Made by a program: the position numbers and the translations under genes | The notes under the pieces: generated by a model | Database searches by the model: none | What the model was told of the DNA's origin: nothing | What the model saw: only the letters and a program-made list of their open reading frames with translations | In this document: piece by piece, positions 6,526-16,572 of the stretch | Layout: each line of letters starts with the position of its first letter | How positions within the stretch are numbered: position 1 is the stretch's first letter | IMG/VR virus record: IMGVR_UViG_3300010883_000343 | Span: 1 to 27,154 of that record | Length of the DNA stretch: 27,154 nt | Source of the DNA: a virus | Reading direction: 5' to 3' (one strand)

Positions 6526-7746
6526 ATGCTAGGCAACCCTACACCGTTTCCACCACCGTTTCCATCACCTGTAGTACGAGGCACTCCTATTAAAGCGCCC
6601 GCAGTAACCCGACCCAATCCTATACCTGCAGAAGCAACATTACCTAGGTACGTTAACTATCTTGCAGATTATTCTGGTTGTGGTCATTGGAGAATTTTAT
6701 GGCCTGAAGCGGTAATTAACTCTAGAGGAGACGGCATGTCGCAATCAACCACAGCGATGGTTACTGAACCGAGATGGTATACTGGTGTTAAGTGTGTTAA
6801 AGTTCAACGACAAGCATCATCTCAACAAAAAAAGTTTGTTGAGTTTTTAAAATCAATTCAAAAAGACTACGGGTTTAAAATTGTCTATGTAGTAGACGAT
6901 GTGGTCTTTAGAGAAGTAATTCCAGATTATAATAAATTTAAATTTGCATTTGATACTGATGAGGTTCGTCAAAACTGCATTGATATTATTAATATGGTGG
7001 ATGAAGTTACGGTTACATGTGACTTTATGAAGAAGCTGTATATCGAAAAAACAGGTCAAGAAAAAATAACTACTCTCCCTAATTTTGTTCCTAATACGTG
7101 GATGGGTCATCTGTATAATGGTCGACAAGTTGCAAGATCGTTTGAAGAAAATAAGAGGAAGCCGCGAATTTTATATACAGGATCCGGAGCCCACTATGAT
7201 GTGGATAATAAAACCGGCGGTAAAGACGATTTATCTGAAATAAGAGATTTTGTACGCAATACGGTTAATAAATACCAGTGGGTGTTTGTAGGGGCATACC
7301 CACCACAACTACATGATCTTGTACAGGAACGTAAAATTGAATTTTACCCATGGCAACCTCTCTTGAAATACCCATATTTTATTGCTAACCTAAATGCGCA
7401 GTTAATGGTTGCGCCACTACAAGCGAACGATTTTAATAGAGCAAAATCTGATATTAAATTTATTGAATCATGTATTTTAGGTATACCTTGCTTATGCCAA
7501 AATATTGAGACATATAAAAATGCACCAGTCAAGCTAAGATTTGATACAATTGATGATTTCGAACAAAAGATTAGTACTATTCTAAATTACAAAAAGAAAA
7601 ATAAATATTTTCAAAATAGTACTAAGCTTAGAGAAATAGGTCAGAAAAGAATTTTAGAATTAGATCATAATATTGGTGCTTTTCTCGAGACACTTAACAC
7701 ACCCTTTGGTTCTGATGAAAGAACCTACCTTAAAAAGTGGAATTAG
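6526..7746 (+). CDS. GT-B-type glycosyltransferase with Pro-rich N-terminus
   Basis: This is a 406-residue protein. The first ~40 residues are strikingly proline-rich, followed by LADYSGCGHWR. A Rossmann-like half comes next, with KIVYVVDDV (about 118-126), VDEVTVTCDFMKK and LPNFV. A second half begins RILYTGSGAHYD (about 213-224) and contains WVFVGAYPP, LMVAPL and KFIESCILGIPCL, the last resembling the nucleotide-sugar binding region of GT4-family enzymes. Acceptor is unknown; DNA base, virion or host glycan are all possible. It sits between gp46 and gp43, where T4 has 45-44-62-regA. A run of TA repeats precedes the ATG at 6526. A degraded match to the early module (TAGATT, 16 bases, TATATA, 8 bases) is too weak to call. 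Confidence 0.72.
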   Translation: MLGNPTPFPPPFPSPVVRGTPIKAPAVTRPNPIPAEATLPRYVNYLADYSGCGHWRILWPEAVINSRGDGMSQSTTAMVTEPRWYTGVKCVKVQRQASSQQKKFVEFLKSIQKDYGFKIVYVVDDVVFREVIPDYNKFKFAFDTDEVRQNCIDIINMVDEVTVTCDFMKKLYIEKTGQEKITTLPNFVPNTWMGHLYNGRQVARSFEENKRKPRILYTGSGAHYDVDNKTGGKDDLSEIRDFVRNTVNKYQWVFVGAYPPQLHDLVQERKIEFYPWQPLLKYPYFIANLNAQLMVAPLQANDFNRAKSDIKFIESCILGIPCLCQNIETYKNAPVKLRFDTIDDFEQKISTILNYKKKNKYFQNSTKLREIGQKRILELDHNIGAFLETLNTPFGSDERTYLKKWN

Positions 7747-11672: not shown

Positions 11673-12791
11673 ATGGATAAAGATATTACTAGTGCATTAG
11701 ACACTATCGATTCTGTCAACCCTTTTGCGACTTATCTTAACAATAATACCTTAAGCCACGTTGGAGAATGGATTGATACAGGGTCTTATGTGTTAAACGC
11801 AATTATTTCAGGGTCAATTCACGGTGGAATTCCTAAAGGAAGAGTAACAGTACTCGCCGGTGAGTCAATGACCGGTAAATCCCTTTTTGTTCAAAAAATA
11901 TTAGCTAAGGCCCAGGAGGACGGGTTAGTCCCTGTTATCTTTGATACTGAAAATGCTATTGACCCTGAAGGAGCTGAGAGATTAGGGCTAAATATTAGTA
12001 AAGTTAAGTATGTTCCTTGTACCAGCATTGAACAAACTCGAAATTCTTTGTATAGGTTTCTTATGGCAGTCAAAGAGAAGGGACTAGAGGGTAAATTTAT
12101 TGTAGCTATTGATTCATTGGCTAATCTTCAATCAGAACTTGAATTAACACGAATGAGTAAAGATAGTGTTAGTACTGATATGGGTACAAAGGCACGAGCA
12201 ATGAAAACACTAATGCAGACATGTACGAATCTCGGTGCTGTTACCCAGACAACAATCCTTTGCACTAATCATGTATATGATGACCCAACCGCATTGTTTC
12301 CTTCTATTGAAAAGAACATGCCTGGTGGCAAATCATGCATTTACCTCCCATCAGTAACAGTTCAATTAGCGCGCAAGCCAATGAAGTCGGATGGTGGTAA
12401 GACAGTTGATGGTGAATTAGCAGTTGGGCAGAAAAAGTACGCGGGTATTATAATTAGAGCACTAACTCGTAAAAACCGATTTATTAAACAATACCTCGAA
12501 GGTGAAATGTATCTCTCATTTGCTTCTGGGCTTGATCGTTACTATGGATTAGTTGATCTAGCTGTCGGTGTAGGTGCAGTAATTCAAACTGGGGCAACTT
12601 ATCAGCTTGAAGATGGTAAGAAGCTAGGCTATTATAAGAATTGGAGAAAAGATGTAAAGCTTTGGGAAGAGACTATTCTTCCAAAACTAGAAGAGCGAAT
12701 TAAAGATGAGTGGTCATATAGTAATAAAGAAGAAGAACCACCGGATGAAGTAGAGGGAATTATTGATGAAAAAACTAGTACTGACTCTTAG
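11673..12791 (+). CDS. uvsX: UvsX recombinase (RecA-like)
   Basis: The 372 residues compare with about 390 in T4. Motifs: Walker A GESMTGKS (63-70), a catalytic Glu in FDTENAID (90-97), Walker B FIVAIDSLAN (142-151), and an L2-like segment with NMPGGKS. The acidic tail (KEEEPPDEVEG) resembles T4 UvsX. UvsX pairs and exchanges strands and acts with UvsY and gp32, all encoded here. The predicted transcript is leaderless, since TATAAT ends seven bases before the ATG. The 3' end overlaps the queC-like gene by 26 bases. Confidence 0.95.
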   Translation: MDKDITSALDTIDSVNPFATYLNNNTLSHVGEWIDTGSYVLNAIISGSIHGGIPKGRVTVLAGESMTGKSLFVQKILAKAQEDGLVPVIFDTENAIDPEGAERLGLNISKVKYVPCTSIEQTRNSLYRFLMAVKEKGLEGKFIVAIDSLANLQSELELTRMSKDSVSTDMGTKARAMKTLMQTCTNLGAVTQTTILCTNHVYDDPTALFPSIEKNMPGGKSCIYLPSVTVQLARKPMKSDGGKTVDGELAVGQKKYAGIIIRALTRKNRFIKQYLEGEMYLSFASGLDRYYGLVDLAVGVGAVIQTGATYQLEDGKKLGYYKNWRKDVKLWEETILPKLEERIKDEWSYSNKEEEPPDEVEGIIDEKTSTDS

Positions 12792-13521
12792 TGGTGGGAT
12801 GGACTCATCTGTGCTGTTGCATATGGCGCAAGATAGAGGTTATGATCATATACACACTATAACCTTTGACTATGGGCAGAGGCATAAACGAGAATTAGGT
12901 TGTGTTGGTAAGCAAATTAACAACTTTAATGAAATGTTTAGTGGGTGGTTAAATTTAAAAGTTACTAATAAGGTTCTTGATGTAAAGTATATTAAGGACA
13001 TTGCTCCTACTTCCTCTCTCACTAATAAAGATATTGATAATCCTAATATTAGTGAGATGGCAGGTGATGCACAACCAGTATCATACGTACCGTTTCGTAA
13101 TATGATGTTTTTGTCTATCTGCTCTTCGTATGCTGAAAGTGTAGGTGCAGATACTGTATGGTACGGAGCCGCACAAGTTGATTCATTAGCTGGTTACTGG
13201 GATGGTAGTGAAGAGTTTGTTGATACTGTTAATGGTGTAACAGCTCTCAATAGAGAAAACAGAATTAATATCGAAGCACCTTTACTAGTTATGTCTAAGG
13301 CGGAAATTATTGAAGAAGGTCTTAGACTAGGGGTTAAATTTAATGATACTTGGACGTGTTATTCCGACAGGGAAGATAAATTAGCTGATGCAACAACACC
13401 ATCAAGCAGTCTGAGAGTAAAGGGGTTTATGGATGCGGGTTATAGAGATCCGATACAGTATATCCAACAGGAAAAGTTGGAAAAGTTATATAAAGAGAAT
13501 GACTGTAAGGAATGTGCTTAA
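12766..13521 (+). CDS. queC: QueC-like 7-cyano-7-deazaguanine synthase homologue with altered metal site
   Basis: A 251-residue PP-loop ATPase: SGGMDSS (9-15), FDYGQRH (34-40), YVPFRN (107-112, versus YVPARN) and TWTCY (195-199). QueC makes preQ0 from 7-carboxy-7-deazaguanine for queuosine-type RNA or DNA modification. The usual ACGxCxxC zinc region reads ADATTPSSS (207-215) in a length-matched alignment, so three of four Cys are gone; a new CKEC ends the protein (247-250). The usual GYPDCRPEF reads GYWDGSEEF (143-151). It may be a divergent subfamily, for instance the QueC half of Gat-QueC. I chose ATG 12766 over an upstream TTG because AGAGGG lies nine bases before it. Confidence 0.82.
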   Translation: MKKLVLTLSGGMDSSVLLHMAQDRGYDHIHTITFDYGQRHKRELGCVGKQINNFNEMFSGWLNLKVTNKVLDVKYIKDIAPTSSLTNKDIDNPNISEMAGDAQPVSYVPFRNMMFLSICSSYAESVGADTVWYGAAQVDSLAGYWDGSEEFVDTVNGVTALNRENRINIEAPLLVMSKAEIIEEGLRLGVKFNDTWTCYSDREDKLADATTPSSSLRVKGFMDAGYRDPIQYIQQEKLEKLYKENDCKECA

Positions 13522-14729
13522 AGACCGTAGCGTCTAAGCTCCTCTAATTGCCAATGGGTCTTAGGCTTGTAGCGATCTTTAAAAGATTCGGAAAGGACTT
13601 CCTTTTTCTTATTACGCTTGTCGCTGCTTGACTGATCGGACATATAACCATCGGTGTAAGACTCTCTAAACTCTTCTTCCTCCGTGTAGCCATTACTAAT
13701 CTTATTTTTTACTCTTTGAACGAATTCATTATCTTCTGGCGCTACTGTTAGTCCCTCTTCAACATCATTAAAAAGAATACCTTTACGGTTTAACGCCTTC
13801 TTAAGAGCGCGTTTTACGCTATCGGTTACAGTTAGTATAAATGCTTCTTTGTCGTTGTTCATAATTAAATCGTCTACTTCATCCTCCTCTACTTCGTTCT
13901 CCGCGTAGCTATTACCCGCTTCATCACCGTATAAAGGCATCTCTAAATCTTCTTCAGCGCTAGTATTAAGCGCCACCTGTATATCTTTTTCTTCTACAGC
14001 TGGAAAATACTTAGTTATAAGTCTATTCATCTGGTCATTTATCTTTACCTCTCCACCAAAAGCACCTATTGGTCCTTCAATATTTAAACCAACTGGTGTA
14101 ACAACTGCTGTAAAATCTTTATAAAATTTATTAATTTTATCTACTATATTAGCTGCTACTTCATCCTTATTATCTACACCTAAATAGACGTCAACATCAT
14201 CAAAAGGTAAATCTGGTATTCGTTTTTTCATATCATCAATTTCCTTTTCGATATCAACAACTGCCCCTTGTACTGCATCGCCAACATCTACACCGGCTTT
14301 AATATCTTTAGCAAGCTCATTAGCCCGGGCATTATACAACTCTGTTTTTTGTCTATCAGTACCAGTTCTATTTAAAAATAATGCCATTTCCTCCTCCACC
14401 TCATCGGCGATCTCATCCCTCCTACTATCAATTTCTTTTTTATTATCATCTAGTAGTGCTAATAAATTGTCTCCTTTTCCTTTTATCCCCCCCCTTTTAG
14501 CTGCTTGCATTTCGTCATGACTAATAATATTTAAAGTAAATAATAATTTTCTAATAAAGGTAATAGTGTCTAGAGTAGCAGCAGTTCGACCAGCTGTAAC
14601 TAATGTTTTCCTTAAACCACCAAAAGATTTATGGTAGTCTCCAAACTTGCGCGCTTCCGCAAGAAAATCAACCCGGTTGATTAAATCATTAAAGCCGCTA
14701 AAATTATCACTATATTGAAAGGAACTCAT
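13518..14729 (-). CDS. Large late protein of unknown function, probably virion-associated
   Basis: A 403-residue charged protein with no recognised domain. The N-terminus is MSSFQYSDNFSGF, followed by FLAEARKFGD (22-31). The middle has helical Glu/Lys-rich stretches (about 90-160), there is an acidic centre, and the C-terminus is basic, ending KTHWQLEELRRYGL. A perfect late box lies nine bases before the ATG at 14729; the in-frame TTG at 14735 is less likely. Leu-Ala-Glu-Ala at 23-26 fits a T4 gp21 protease site. It contains an eight-G run (14487-14494), a possible slippage site. Its stop overlaps the queC stop tail-to-tail. Late orientation suggests a structural or head protein. Confidence 0.7.
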   Translation of the reverse strand: MSSFQYSDNFSGFNDLINRVDFLAEARKFGDYHKSFGGLRKTLVTAGRTAATLDTITFIRKLLFTLNIISHDEMQAAKRGGIKGKGDNLLALLDDNKKEIDSRRDEIADEVEEEMALFLNRTGTDRQKTELYNARANELAKDIKAGVDVGDAVQGAVVDIEKEIDDMKKRIPDLPFDDVDVYLGVDNKDEVAANIVDKINKFYKDFTAVVTPVGLNIEGPIGAFGGEVKINDQMNRLITKYFPAVEEKDIQVALNTSAEEDLEMPLYGDEAGNSYAENEVEEDEVDDLIMNNDKEAFILTVTDSVKRALKKALNRKGILFNDVEEGLTVAPEDNEFVQRVKNKISNGYTEEEEFRESYTDGYMSDQSSSDKRNKKKEVLSESFKDRYKPKTHWQLEELRRYGL

Positions 14730-14742
14730 ATACAATTATATT
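14715..14742 (+). promoter_or_regulatory. Sigma70-type promoter of the helix-hairpin-helix gene
   Basis: TTGAAA (14715-14720), a 16-base spacer and TATATT (14737-14742), then seven bases to the ATG at 14750. The -35 box lies inside the first codons of the divergent late gene. Confidence 0.7.
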
Positions 14743-14746
14743 TATA
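14739..14746 (-). promoter_or_regulatory. Late promoter box TATAAATA
   Basis: Perfect late box on the minus strand, nine bases before the ATG at 14729. It overlaps the -10 box of the divergent rightward promoter (14737-14742). Confidence 0.75.
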
Positions 14747-14749
14747 CCT

Positions 14750-15226
14750 ATGAAGCTGAATTATAAAGATTTTAATAAAATGACTAAAAGAGAGTTATGT
14801 AAAGTACCAGGAGTAGGTAGAACTACAGCTGGGCGTATTCTGGGGTTTAGACCCTTTAGAAATAATGATGATCTCTTTAAGGTAAAAGGACTGGGTAGAA
14901 AAACACTTAAAGACTTGGGGATTGAAAAAACTAAAAAGAAGAAAAAAAAGTGGTATACAGTTGATGGTGTAGATTACCCGGATTCTGCGCTATCTAGAGA
15001 TAAGAGATACGGTCATGTTGATTTATCTTGGAGGATCCCAAAAGAGCATCGCGAACGCATCGCCCCACCTTCCCCCTGGATACTTAGAATGCGACGCTTA
15101 GATGAAAAAATAAGGGACGATGGTCCCGATGGCCCGTATAACCGTTATATTGATTATTCATATATGTGGGAAGAGGGTTTTAAATTCCCTTGGGAAATAG
15201 AAAGCACTATTGAAAAGGAGCTATAA
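14750..15226 (+). CDS. Helix-hairpin-helix DNA-binding protein
   Basis: A 158-residue protein. Residues 12-57 carry two helix-hairpin-helix elements of the ComEA/RuvA kind: LCKVPGVGRTTAGRIL and then LFKVKGLGRKTLKDLGI. Such motifs bind the DNA backbone without sequence specificity. A lysine run follows (about 60-67), then a Trp/Tyr/Pro-rich C-terminal part with SWRIPKEHRERIAPP that I cannot assign. It probably binds DNA in replication, repair or packaging. It is expressed from its own early-type promoter; the next gene starts 18 bases after its stop with its own promoter. Confidence 0.7.
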   Translation: MKLNYKDFNKMTKRELCKVPGVGRTTAGRILGFRPFRNNDDLFKVKGLGRKTLKDLGIEKTKKKKKKWYTVDGVDYPDSALSRDKRYGHVDLSWRIPKEHRERIAPPSPWILRMRRLDEKIRDDGPDGPYNRYIDYSYMWEEGFKFPWEIESTIEKEL

Positions 15227-15237
15227 TATACTATTAT
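15210..15237 (+). promoter_or_regulatory. Sigma70-type promoter of the amidotransferase gene
   Basis: TTGAAA (15210-15215), a 16-base spacer and TATTAT (15232-15237), then seven bases to the ATG at 15245. The -35 box lies within the end of the helix-hairpin-helix gene. Confidence 0.65.
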
Positions 15238-15244
15238 ATTATAT

Positions 15245-15922
15245 ATGTGCGCAATTTTTGGTGGTGTAAAACCAAGTATTTTTGAAATATTGTATGAAGC
15301 TAATAAGCAAAGAGGTACCTTTGCTTCTAGTGTTGTTGGGTTAACAGAAAATGATCAGCATGTTTTTAAAAAGAGCGGTGGTATTGACTTTGATAAGTTT
15401 AATTATATTGATGATACGTTGTATTACTTAGGACATGTTCAAGCGCCGACATCTGCAAAGAGGACTTGGTTGTATGGTACATCACATCCGTTTGAATCTT
15501 TATCATGGTTGGTTAGTCATAACGGAGTGTTAACCAACCATGACAAGCTTAAAAGAAGGTATTGTAGTTTTCTAGAAAACCCTGTTGATACAGCTGTAAT
15601 AGTTCACCTATTAGAATACTTTACCCAACTTGCTATCGCTAAGGAGAAAAAAATAAAACCTGTTAAAATAATAAAAAATACATTAAAGCTTTTAGAAGGT
15701 ACTTACGCATTAAGTATTTTAGATTGTAATTCCAACGATGTATACTTAGCTAGAAGTGGATCTATATTACATTATTCTAAAGCCGGTGGTTATTATTCAT
15801 CCATGCCAGGTTCAAACTTAAACCCAGTACCTGAAGGTACTATTTTAAAATTAAATAAAAAAACTAAAAAGTGGAATAAAGCTGGTACTTTTGATTTTGT
15901 ATCCCCATTTTCATTCATATGA
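15245..15922 (+). CDS. Stand-alone class II glutamine amidotransferase
   Basis: A 225-residue Ntn-type glutaminase domain. Cys2 in MCAIFGG would be the N-terminal nucleophile after Met removal. QRGTFASS (22-29), GHVQAPTSAKRT (63-74) and SHNGVLTNHD (91-100, with oxyanion Asn-Gly) match the family, as does VDTAVIVHLLEYF. The domain releases ammonia from glutamine for a partner synthetase, but no synthetase is fused here. A QueC-like enzyme 1.7 kb upstream is a plausible partner by analogy with Gat-QueC fusions, which make 7-formamidino-7-deazaguanine. Other partners are possible. Its stop overlaps the next gene's start (ATGA). Confidence 0.82.
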   Translation: MCAIFGGVKPSIFEILYEANKQRGTFASSVVGLTENDQHVFKKSGGIDFDKFNYIDDTLYYLGHVQAPTSAKRTWLYGTSHPFESLSWLVSHNGVLTNHDKLKRRYCSFLENPVDTAVIVHLLEYFTQLAIAKEKKIKPVKIIKNTLKLLEGTYALSILDCNSNDVYLARSGSILHYSKAGGYYSSMPGSNLNPVPEGTILKLNKKTKKWNKAGTFDFVSPFSFI

Positions 15923-16572
15923 TAAAAACAATGATATTTTCTGCGTCTGCAGGTAAAGAAGCTGACACAACACTGTTTAAAACTACTAAAGCTGAGCAGA
16001 TTGTTATTAAAGAAAATAATAAACAATCTCTTCATAAGGTATATAATAAGGCTATTGATTTTGCACTGCAGGAAGACGTAGAACGTTTAGTATTAGTTCA
16101 TGATGATGTAATATTAGAAAGTTATTCAGAACATAAATTAGATAAATTGTTTAAGAAATTTGATGTAGTAGGCTGTGCTGGTACAACTGAAGTAAATTTA
16201 AAGCTACCCGCGCTATGGCACTTAATGGGCGGTGGGTTTGGTTCTGGAAATTTACATGGGGCAGTAGCGCATGGTGATGAAAACCACAAACATATGACAG
16301 CTTTTGGTGAATACCCAAAGCGTGTTGTTCTACTTGATGGTGTTTTTCTAGCTATACATAAACGCGTGTTTAAAAAAATACGCTTTGATGAAACATGCCC
16401 ATCTAAATGGCATTTTTACGATTTAGATTATTCTATGCAATGTCATAAAGCAGGATTTAAATTAGGTGTCGGTGATATTTTAATTACACATAATTCACCT
16501 GGTCTTACGTCATTTACAGATGAATTTAATAAAGGCCAAGAGTGGTTTTTAGACAAGTGGAAAACCAAATAA
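15919..16572 (+). CDS. GT-A-type glycosyltransferase (family 2-like)
   Basis: A 217-residue protein. VLVHDDVIL (58-66) looks like the nucleotide-sugar strand and acidic metal motif of GT-A enzymes. LLDGVFLAIHKRVF (138-151) and WHFYDLDYSMQCHKAGFKLGV (164-184; here the acceptor-side Asp residues at 168 and 170) follow the usual GT2 order. HNSPG near the C-terminus may bind metal. The acceptor is unknown. It overlaps the amidotransferase gene (ATGA) and so is likely cotranslated with it. It is only about half the length of the GT-B enzyme at 6526 and is not a paralogue. Confidence 0.7.
   Translation: MIKTMIFSASAGKEADTTLFKTTKAEQIVIKENNKQSLHKVYNKAIDFALQEDVERLVLVHDDVILESYSEHKLDKLFKKFDVVGCAGTTEVNLKLPALWHLMGGGFGSGNLHGAVAHGDENHKHMTAFGEYPKRVVLLDGVFLAIHKRVFKKIRFDETCPSKWHFYDLDYSMQCHKAGFKLGVGDILITHNSPGLTSFTDEFNKGQEWFLDKWKTK

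Follow-up and report, generated by a model that had tools for sequence, protein, structure and literature searches.

The question raised by this locus is how a QueC-like enzyme that has lost most of its zinc-binding cysteines relates to a stand-alone class II glutamine amidotransferase (GAT) encoded shortly after it, and what the two proteins might make. Both genes lie on the plus strand of IMG/VR virus record IMGVR_UViG_3300010883_000343, of which positions 1 to 27,154 are hereafter called the window. This 27 kb fragment belongs to an uncultivated T4-like marine phage (UvsX, UvsY, SbcCD, family B polymerase, DnaB, late sigma factor). We propose that the two proteins probably act as a two-subunit, glutamine-dependent synthase of preQ0 (7-cyano-7-deazaguanine) in a phage 7-deazaguanine pathway.

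A conserved pair of genes

The QueC-like PP-loop enzyme is encoded directly 3' of uvsX, at 12766-13521 (+), and has 251 amino acids (aa) from the ATG at 12766, from which its residue numbers are counted; a TTG lies one codon 5' of this ATG, at 12763. The protein is recognised by PF06508 (E=1.1e-51) and by phrog_1550, "QueC-like" (E=3e-55), and its AlphaFold2 model (pLDDT 86.5) has the QueC structures 2pg3 and 3bl5 as top PDB matches, Cap9 being also among the structural matches. On the same strand, 1.72 kb downstream, the GAT (15245-15922, +; 225 aa, starting with MCAI) matches PF13522 (E=1.5e-8), and the top PDB match of its AlphaFold2 model (pLDDT 93.1) is the GlmS glutaminase domain 1xff. 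Both open reading frames (ORFs) are far above chance and conserved in dozens of distinct phage contigs.

In viral contigs, 76 QueC-like loci were found. Where a distinct QueC locus has 4.5 kb or more of sequence on its downstream side, a GAT follows on the same strand in 51 of 52 cases, at a distance of 11 bp to 2.9 kb; reciprocally, all 40 GAT loci with as much sequence upstream are preceded by QueC. The lone exception (L013/L019) is IMGVR_UViG_3300030107_007843, a contig of 17 kb on which two divergent QueC loci lie some 14 kb from each other; no GAT was found on it, and it is probably a composite assembly. Judged by gene order, QueC and GAT are a conserved unit.

The sequence-only reading had held that a split version with a rebuilt metal site would be a new arrangement. 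The pair is not peculiar to this phage: a KVP40-type GAT is present in 51 cultured phage records and stands directly after QueC in every record looked at. In the Vibrio phages KVP40, nt-1 and 6E35.1a (Schizotequatrovirus and allies), in Pseudomonas phage pf16 and in the Vibrio jumbo phage 2.275.O, the GAT, free-standing and in one clade with that of the window, lies immediately 3' of QueC within preQ0 gene clusters, which mostly include QueF, and the same succession occurs in the other listed Vibrio records. These GATs are annotated "hypothetical protein" in nearly all cases, and a function is now suggested for this neighbour of QueC in KVP40, nt-1 and other model phages. The clusters of KVP40, nt-1, pf16 and 6E35.1a also contain a DpdA2-type transglycosylase gene, whereas the window clade has no detectable DpdA; the published DpdA2 accession, YP_008125322, is that of nt-1 VPFG_00171, and pf16 gp80 shares 31% identity with the KVP40 protein.

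A search of 84,980 genomes of bacteria and archaea gave just two weak partial matches to the GAT family, which is nearly absent from them. Among cultured phages, a single-sequence tblastn with the window GAT missed the KVP40 GAT, which was detected with PHROG 12378 and a profile search. One record, "Acinetobacter phage MD-2021a" (H2/L129), was rejected as a source of phage QueC: bacterial chromosomal genes surround a normal queC, the record is mislabelled or contaminated, and its sequence was used as a bacterial QueC.

Residues kept and lost

In a 2026 study, QueC proteins are defined by the motifs SGGxDS, YxQxHxxE, VPxRN and YPDC together with a zinc site, C(x)8CxxCxxC, and Y35, R99, Y131 and Y189 are shown to be essential in the E. 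coli enzyme (PMC13329287). The motifs SGGMDS, YGQRHKRE and VPFRN of canonical QueC (PF06508 cluster 1) are intact in the window protein, and the four essential residues map to Y36, R111, Y144 and Y199, all invariant among 40 sequences. In the ATP-binding PP-loop (SGGMDS, 12790-12807, +), S9, G10, G11, D13 and S14 are also invariant (n=40). The substrate motif YPDC is replaced by YWDG (13195-13206, +), in which Tyr and Asp are kept and Cys is gone (Y144, W145 and D146 invariant, n=40). KVP40-type phages share the YWD part, the equivalent motif being YWDC in KVP40 and YWDT in pf16 and 2.275.O.

The canonical zinc site retains one of its four cysteines, the invariant Cys198 of TCY (13357-13359, +). 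In the former zinc loop DATTPSS (13387-13407, +), D208, T211 and S214 replace the three others, as assigned by alignment with B. subtilis QueC and with zinc-intact relatives (L066-L070, L073). The kept PP-loop, the loss of three zinc cysteines and the altered substrate motif had been described in the sequence-only reading and are all borne out. That reading also saw a rebuilt metal site in the C-terminal CKEC (13504-13515, +). The motif is present, but such a site was rejected as a family trait: CKEC is not conserved past near relatives, and among the 50 distinct QueCs without any of the three loop cysteines, just 36 have a C-terminal CxxC and 12 of the other 14 have one C-terminal Cys.

The zinc cysteines are kept in the relatives L066-L070, L073 and L076 and also in KVP40-type phages, whereas the window clade has lost them. 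Because the zinc-less QueCs (L077 and 13 others) form one tree group (support 97/96), the site would most simply have been lost once. The zinc-bearing L069, L070 and L076 already have a GAT nearby, and the QueC-GAT partnership is therefore older than the zinc loss. The window clade is thus a natural example of a QueC without its zinc site that yet retains the active-site residues.

The GAT shows the N-terminal Cys, HNG, Asp and Ntn fold of class II (Ntn) amidotransferases. Cys2, the predicted nucleophile (15248-15250, +), is invariant among 39 sequences, the oxyanion-hole Asn-Gly lies in HNG (H92-N93-G94, 15518-15526, +), found in 73 of 73 GATs, and the invariant Asp115 (15587-15589, +) is equivalent to D123 in an alignment with E. 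coli GlmS. However, the arginine of this class is missing. In GlmS and PurF this residue (R73 in E. coli GlmS) binds the glutamine carboxylate, and Gat-QueC has it as well; the window GAT has Gln66 at this place, in the motif HVQAPT (15434-15451, +), as do all 72 readable GATs, and the substitution extends to the GATs of KVP40, nt-1, F86, pf16 and 2.275.O. The motif reads HxQAPT in stand-alone GATs versus NxRAEPT in Gat-QueC. This change may affect how glutamine is bound, or may put the GAT under the control of its partner. The free class II amidotransferase reported earlier 1.7 kb downstream is therefore right as to C2, HNG and D115 and less intact than supposed as to the arginine.

Phylogeny of the pair and of Gat-QueC fusions

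The two genes had been interpreted as a possible split version of Gat-QueC. Known Gat-QueC proteins (phage 9g, Quinobequin-P09, the archaeal archaeosine synthase) resemble the pair in bringing together a class II GAT and a QueC domain in the 7-deazaguanine pathway. They are, however, one fused chain instead of two ORFs 1.7 kb apart, they keep the zinc cysteines and the GAT arginine, they carry a PDNE motif, and that of 9g has a DpdA partner. In trees with three Gat-QueC fusions, all of them from phages and none from archaea, the stand-alone GATs cluster together (98/97), separately from the GAT domains of the fusions (99/96). Their QueC partners likewise cluster together (100/98), away from the QueC domains of Gat-QueC (100/100), and the GAT and QueC trees show the same partner clades. 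Since both trees set the pair apart from the fusions with good support, the pairing is, on this phylogeny, independent of Gat-QueC, and a split by descent was not upheld. QueC and a glutaminase would thus have teamed up separately from the known fusions. An origin of the GAT in an unrelated GlmS, AsnB or PurF pathway, which had been foreseen as a possible objection, was ruled out by the linkage to QueC and by the tree. A comparable division of labour is known in the GMP synthetase of some archaea, whose PP-loop subunit and glutaminase come from separate genes (PMC13329287); its GATase class (PF00117) and its substrate differ from those of the window pair.

The 7-deazaguanine pathway in relatives

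The window is too short to show the other pathway genes, but relatives have them. Along the whole length of the window, 33 ORFs recur in G025 (197 kb) without a change of order, and the FolE, QueD and QueE of G025 start about 5.6 kb past the point matching the left end of the window. In the relatives, QueD, QueE and FolE are in the same genome as QueC, about 20 kb away. G001, G002 and G025, which are the largest records (155-197 kb), each contain QueC, GAT, QueD, QueE and FolE or FolE2, together with two P-loop kinases, a phosphoribosyltransferase (PRTase) and a QueF match. We infer that the window's own genome has the same pathway genes. The sequence-only reading had tied the pair to 7-deazaguanine synthesis, with a lack of deazaguanine genes elsewhere as the outcome that would speak against it; FolE/FolE2, QueD, QueE and QueF of the relatives support this tie, as do the 7-deazaguanine DNA bases published for cultured phages with the pair. 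In related phages (L108-L118), FolE (PF01227) and FolE2 (PF02649) swap near the same locus.

Both QueF domains are present in the protein of the relatives, as are the NADPH motif, ESKSIKLY, and the catalytic motif, SNCRVTSQPDWGD. In G001 (L302) and G002 (137654-139729, that is L311 17654-19729), three genes are adjacent, those for QueF, for a thymidylate-kinase-like P-loop kinase and for a formyltransferase-like protein (Formyl_trans_N, PF00551), which suggests a formylated preQ1.

Predicted function and rival explanations

We infer that the two proteins form a physical complex with the following activities. FolE or FolE2, QueD and QueE would produce 7-carboxy-7-deazaguanine (CDG). The GAT subunit would hydrolyse glutamine and pass the ammonia to the QueC-like subunit, which would activate CDG with ATP and convert it through the amide to preQ0. 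QueF would then reduce preQ0 to preQ1, possibly formylated afterwards, and the modified base would most likely be placed in phage DNA, where it would protect against host restriction. This function is supported by the retention of all residues essential in E. coli QueC, and preQ0 is the predicted product because QueF, which reduces it, is present in phages with the pair. Cultured phages provide further indications: 6E35.1a, which has genes for QueC, GAT, QueF and a DpdA2-type protein, is reported to contain dPreQ1 at 15% of dG (PMC12028318), and the bases reported for nt-1 DNA are mostly dPreQ0, some dADG and trace dG+ (PMC6884629).

Several points weigh against a preQ0 synthase. With three zinc cysteines and the YPDC cysteine gone, the enzyme may catalyse a different reaction; free ammonia is enough for canonical QueC, which requires no GAT; and the proposed function does not account for the Gln at the carboxylate-binding site of the GAT. 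The KVP40-type phages keep their zinc site and their chemistry may not be transferable; the FolE, QueD and QueE of the window phage would sit past the left edge, outside the 27 kb seen; and the 155-197 kb relatives may be incomplete, the failure to find DpdA in them being no proof of its absence.

The changed cysteines lead to the least unlikely alternative, in which an enzyme without the zinc site and the YPDC Cys is unable to carry out the second, dehydrating step, and the pair halts at 7-amido-7-deazaguanine (ADG), an intermediate of QueC (PMC13329287). The DNA would then contain dADG, as in the Campylobacter firehammerviruses (CPt10, CP220), which lack DpdA and are reported to be highly modified with this base (PMC6884629). 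These phages are like the marine group in being T4-like, in having FolE, QueD, QueE and QueC with a related PRTase and P-loop kinases, and in that neither DpdA nor DpdA2 was found. Their QueC, however, retains zinc, groups elsewhere and has no GAT, as seen in CPt10, and the marine relatives encode a full QueF, which needs preQ0. We consider an arrest at ADG unlikely. Equally to be doubted, and ranked just after it, is a true functional Gat-QueC in two parts, making the archaeosine base (7-formamidino-7-deazaguanine) like the fused protein of phage 9g. The two domain types are the same, the YPDC Cys is changed in Gat-QueC too (PDNE), and nt-1, which has the pair, contains trace dG+, 44 per million nucleotides (PMC6884629). 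Nevertheless, Hutinet et al. attribute this dG+ to an ArcS homologue (PMC6884629), neither protein of the pair groups with Gat-QueC, whose zinc cysteines and GAT arginine are retained, and phages with the pair have QueF, 6E35.1a being reported with dPreQ1. The formamidino product advanced in the sequence-only reading is thus not favoured, given the canonical NADPH-type QueF and the adjacent formyltransferase of the relatives, and preQ0, preQ1 or formyl-preQ1 appears likelier than archaeosine.

QueC scaffolds have been repurposed repeatedly (PMC13329287), and the window enzyme might have shifted to another substrate (protein deazaguanylation as with Cap9/QatC, another base or a sugar), the GAT supplying its ammonia. 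The structural match to Cap9 and a glycosyltransferase gene overlapping the GAT end by 4 bp would fit such a shift. It is the least probable of the three alternatives: the experimentally essential QueC residues are all retained, the genomes of the relatives hold the full pathway to CDG, deazaguanylation requires no ammonia, and no CD-NTase or qatA/B/D partner was found among the window proteins scanned.

Insertion into DNA and the phosphoribosyltransferase

The sequence-only reading saw no DpdA in the window, and none of TGT, DpdA and DpdA2 was found in it. Neither were DpdA or DpdA2 found in the marine relatives, including those of 155-197 kb, with PF01702, phrog_10773, phrog_887 and our own hidden Markov models (HMMs) at E up to 10. 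Family-specific HMMs were added because PF01702 is insensitive for DpdA and also misses nt-1, which has DpdA2; as a positive control, Synechococcus phage BUCT-ZZ01 scored 250 bits with the DpdA2 HMM. The usual DpdA insertion route is thus probably missing in the marine group.

A PRTase of about 140-170 aa (phrog_8995, with a C-terminal WIVFPWE-type motif) co-occurs with 7-deazaguanine genes in annotated cultured phages. It was located at L143 1498-1932 (-), in L142, L144 and L145, in G025 (7258-7695) and in CPt10 (163073-163486). The marine PRTase HMM matches the CPt10 homologue at 1e-14, and the CPt10 PRTase query and CPt10-type QueC match the same set of Campylobacter phages, 15 records each. 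The other annotated matches are Brevundimonas MaInes/StAshley, Cellulophaga phiST and relatives, and BUCT-ZZ01, to which two unannotated faecal fragments are added. The neighbours of the PRTase in MaInes are FolE and a dNMP kinase that stands beside ribonucleotide reductase; in BUCT-ZZ01 they are QueE on one side and QueD on the other; and phiST has QueD, QueE and FolE. Among phage records, tblastn with the marine PRTase returned just one unannotated faecal fragment; the CPt10 query and our own HMM were needed. In BUCT-ZZ01, an unannotated DpdA2 (L293 23242-24492; the control mentioned above) stands beside the FolE-QueD-PRTase-QueE cluster.

This distribution supports a link of the PRTase with the 7-deazaguanine pathway and suggests a route from base to nucleotide to deoxynucleoside triphosphate (dNTP). 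How phages lacking DpdA bring 7-deazaguanine into their DNA is an open point (PMC6884629), to which the wider gene set gives a concrete and testable answer. We tentatively suggest, as a possibility that could well prove wrong, that this phage group inserts the base without a base-exchange enzyme: the PRTase, acting as an enzyme of the purine type, would make the nucleotide from the free base, ribonucleotide reductase and one or two of the P-loop kinases would bring it to the dNTP, the phage polymerase would insert it, and QueC with GAT would be the glutamine-driven supply. If true, the same nucleotide route would explain the Campylobacter firehammerviruses. Against it, BUCT-ZZ01 has DpdA2 too, which weakens the PRTase as a strict replacement of DpdA, and the marine PRTase is not adjacent to pathway genes. 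No earlier description of the stand-alone GAT or of the PRTase was found in the literature searched, which did not cover the 2024 MMBR review and the 2023 NAR paper on phage 7-deazaguanine.

Neighbouring genes

QueC and GAT are separated in the window by an ORF on the opposite strand (13518-14735, -; 405 aa, no known family) and a helix-hairpin-helix gene. The gene overlapping the GAT end (15919-16572) encodes a Glyco_tranf_2_5 family glycosyltransferase and is kept at the same place in G025, with 75.6% identity; it may act on the modified base or have no relation to it.

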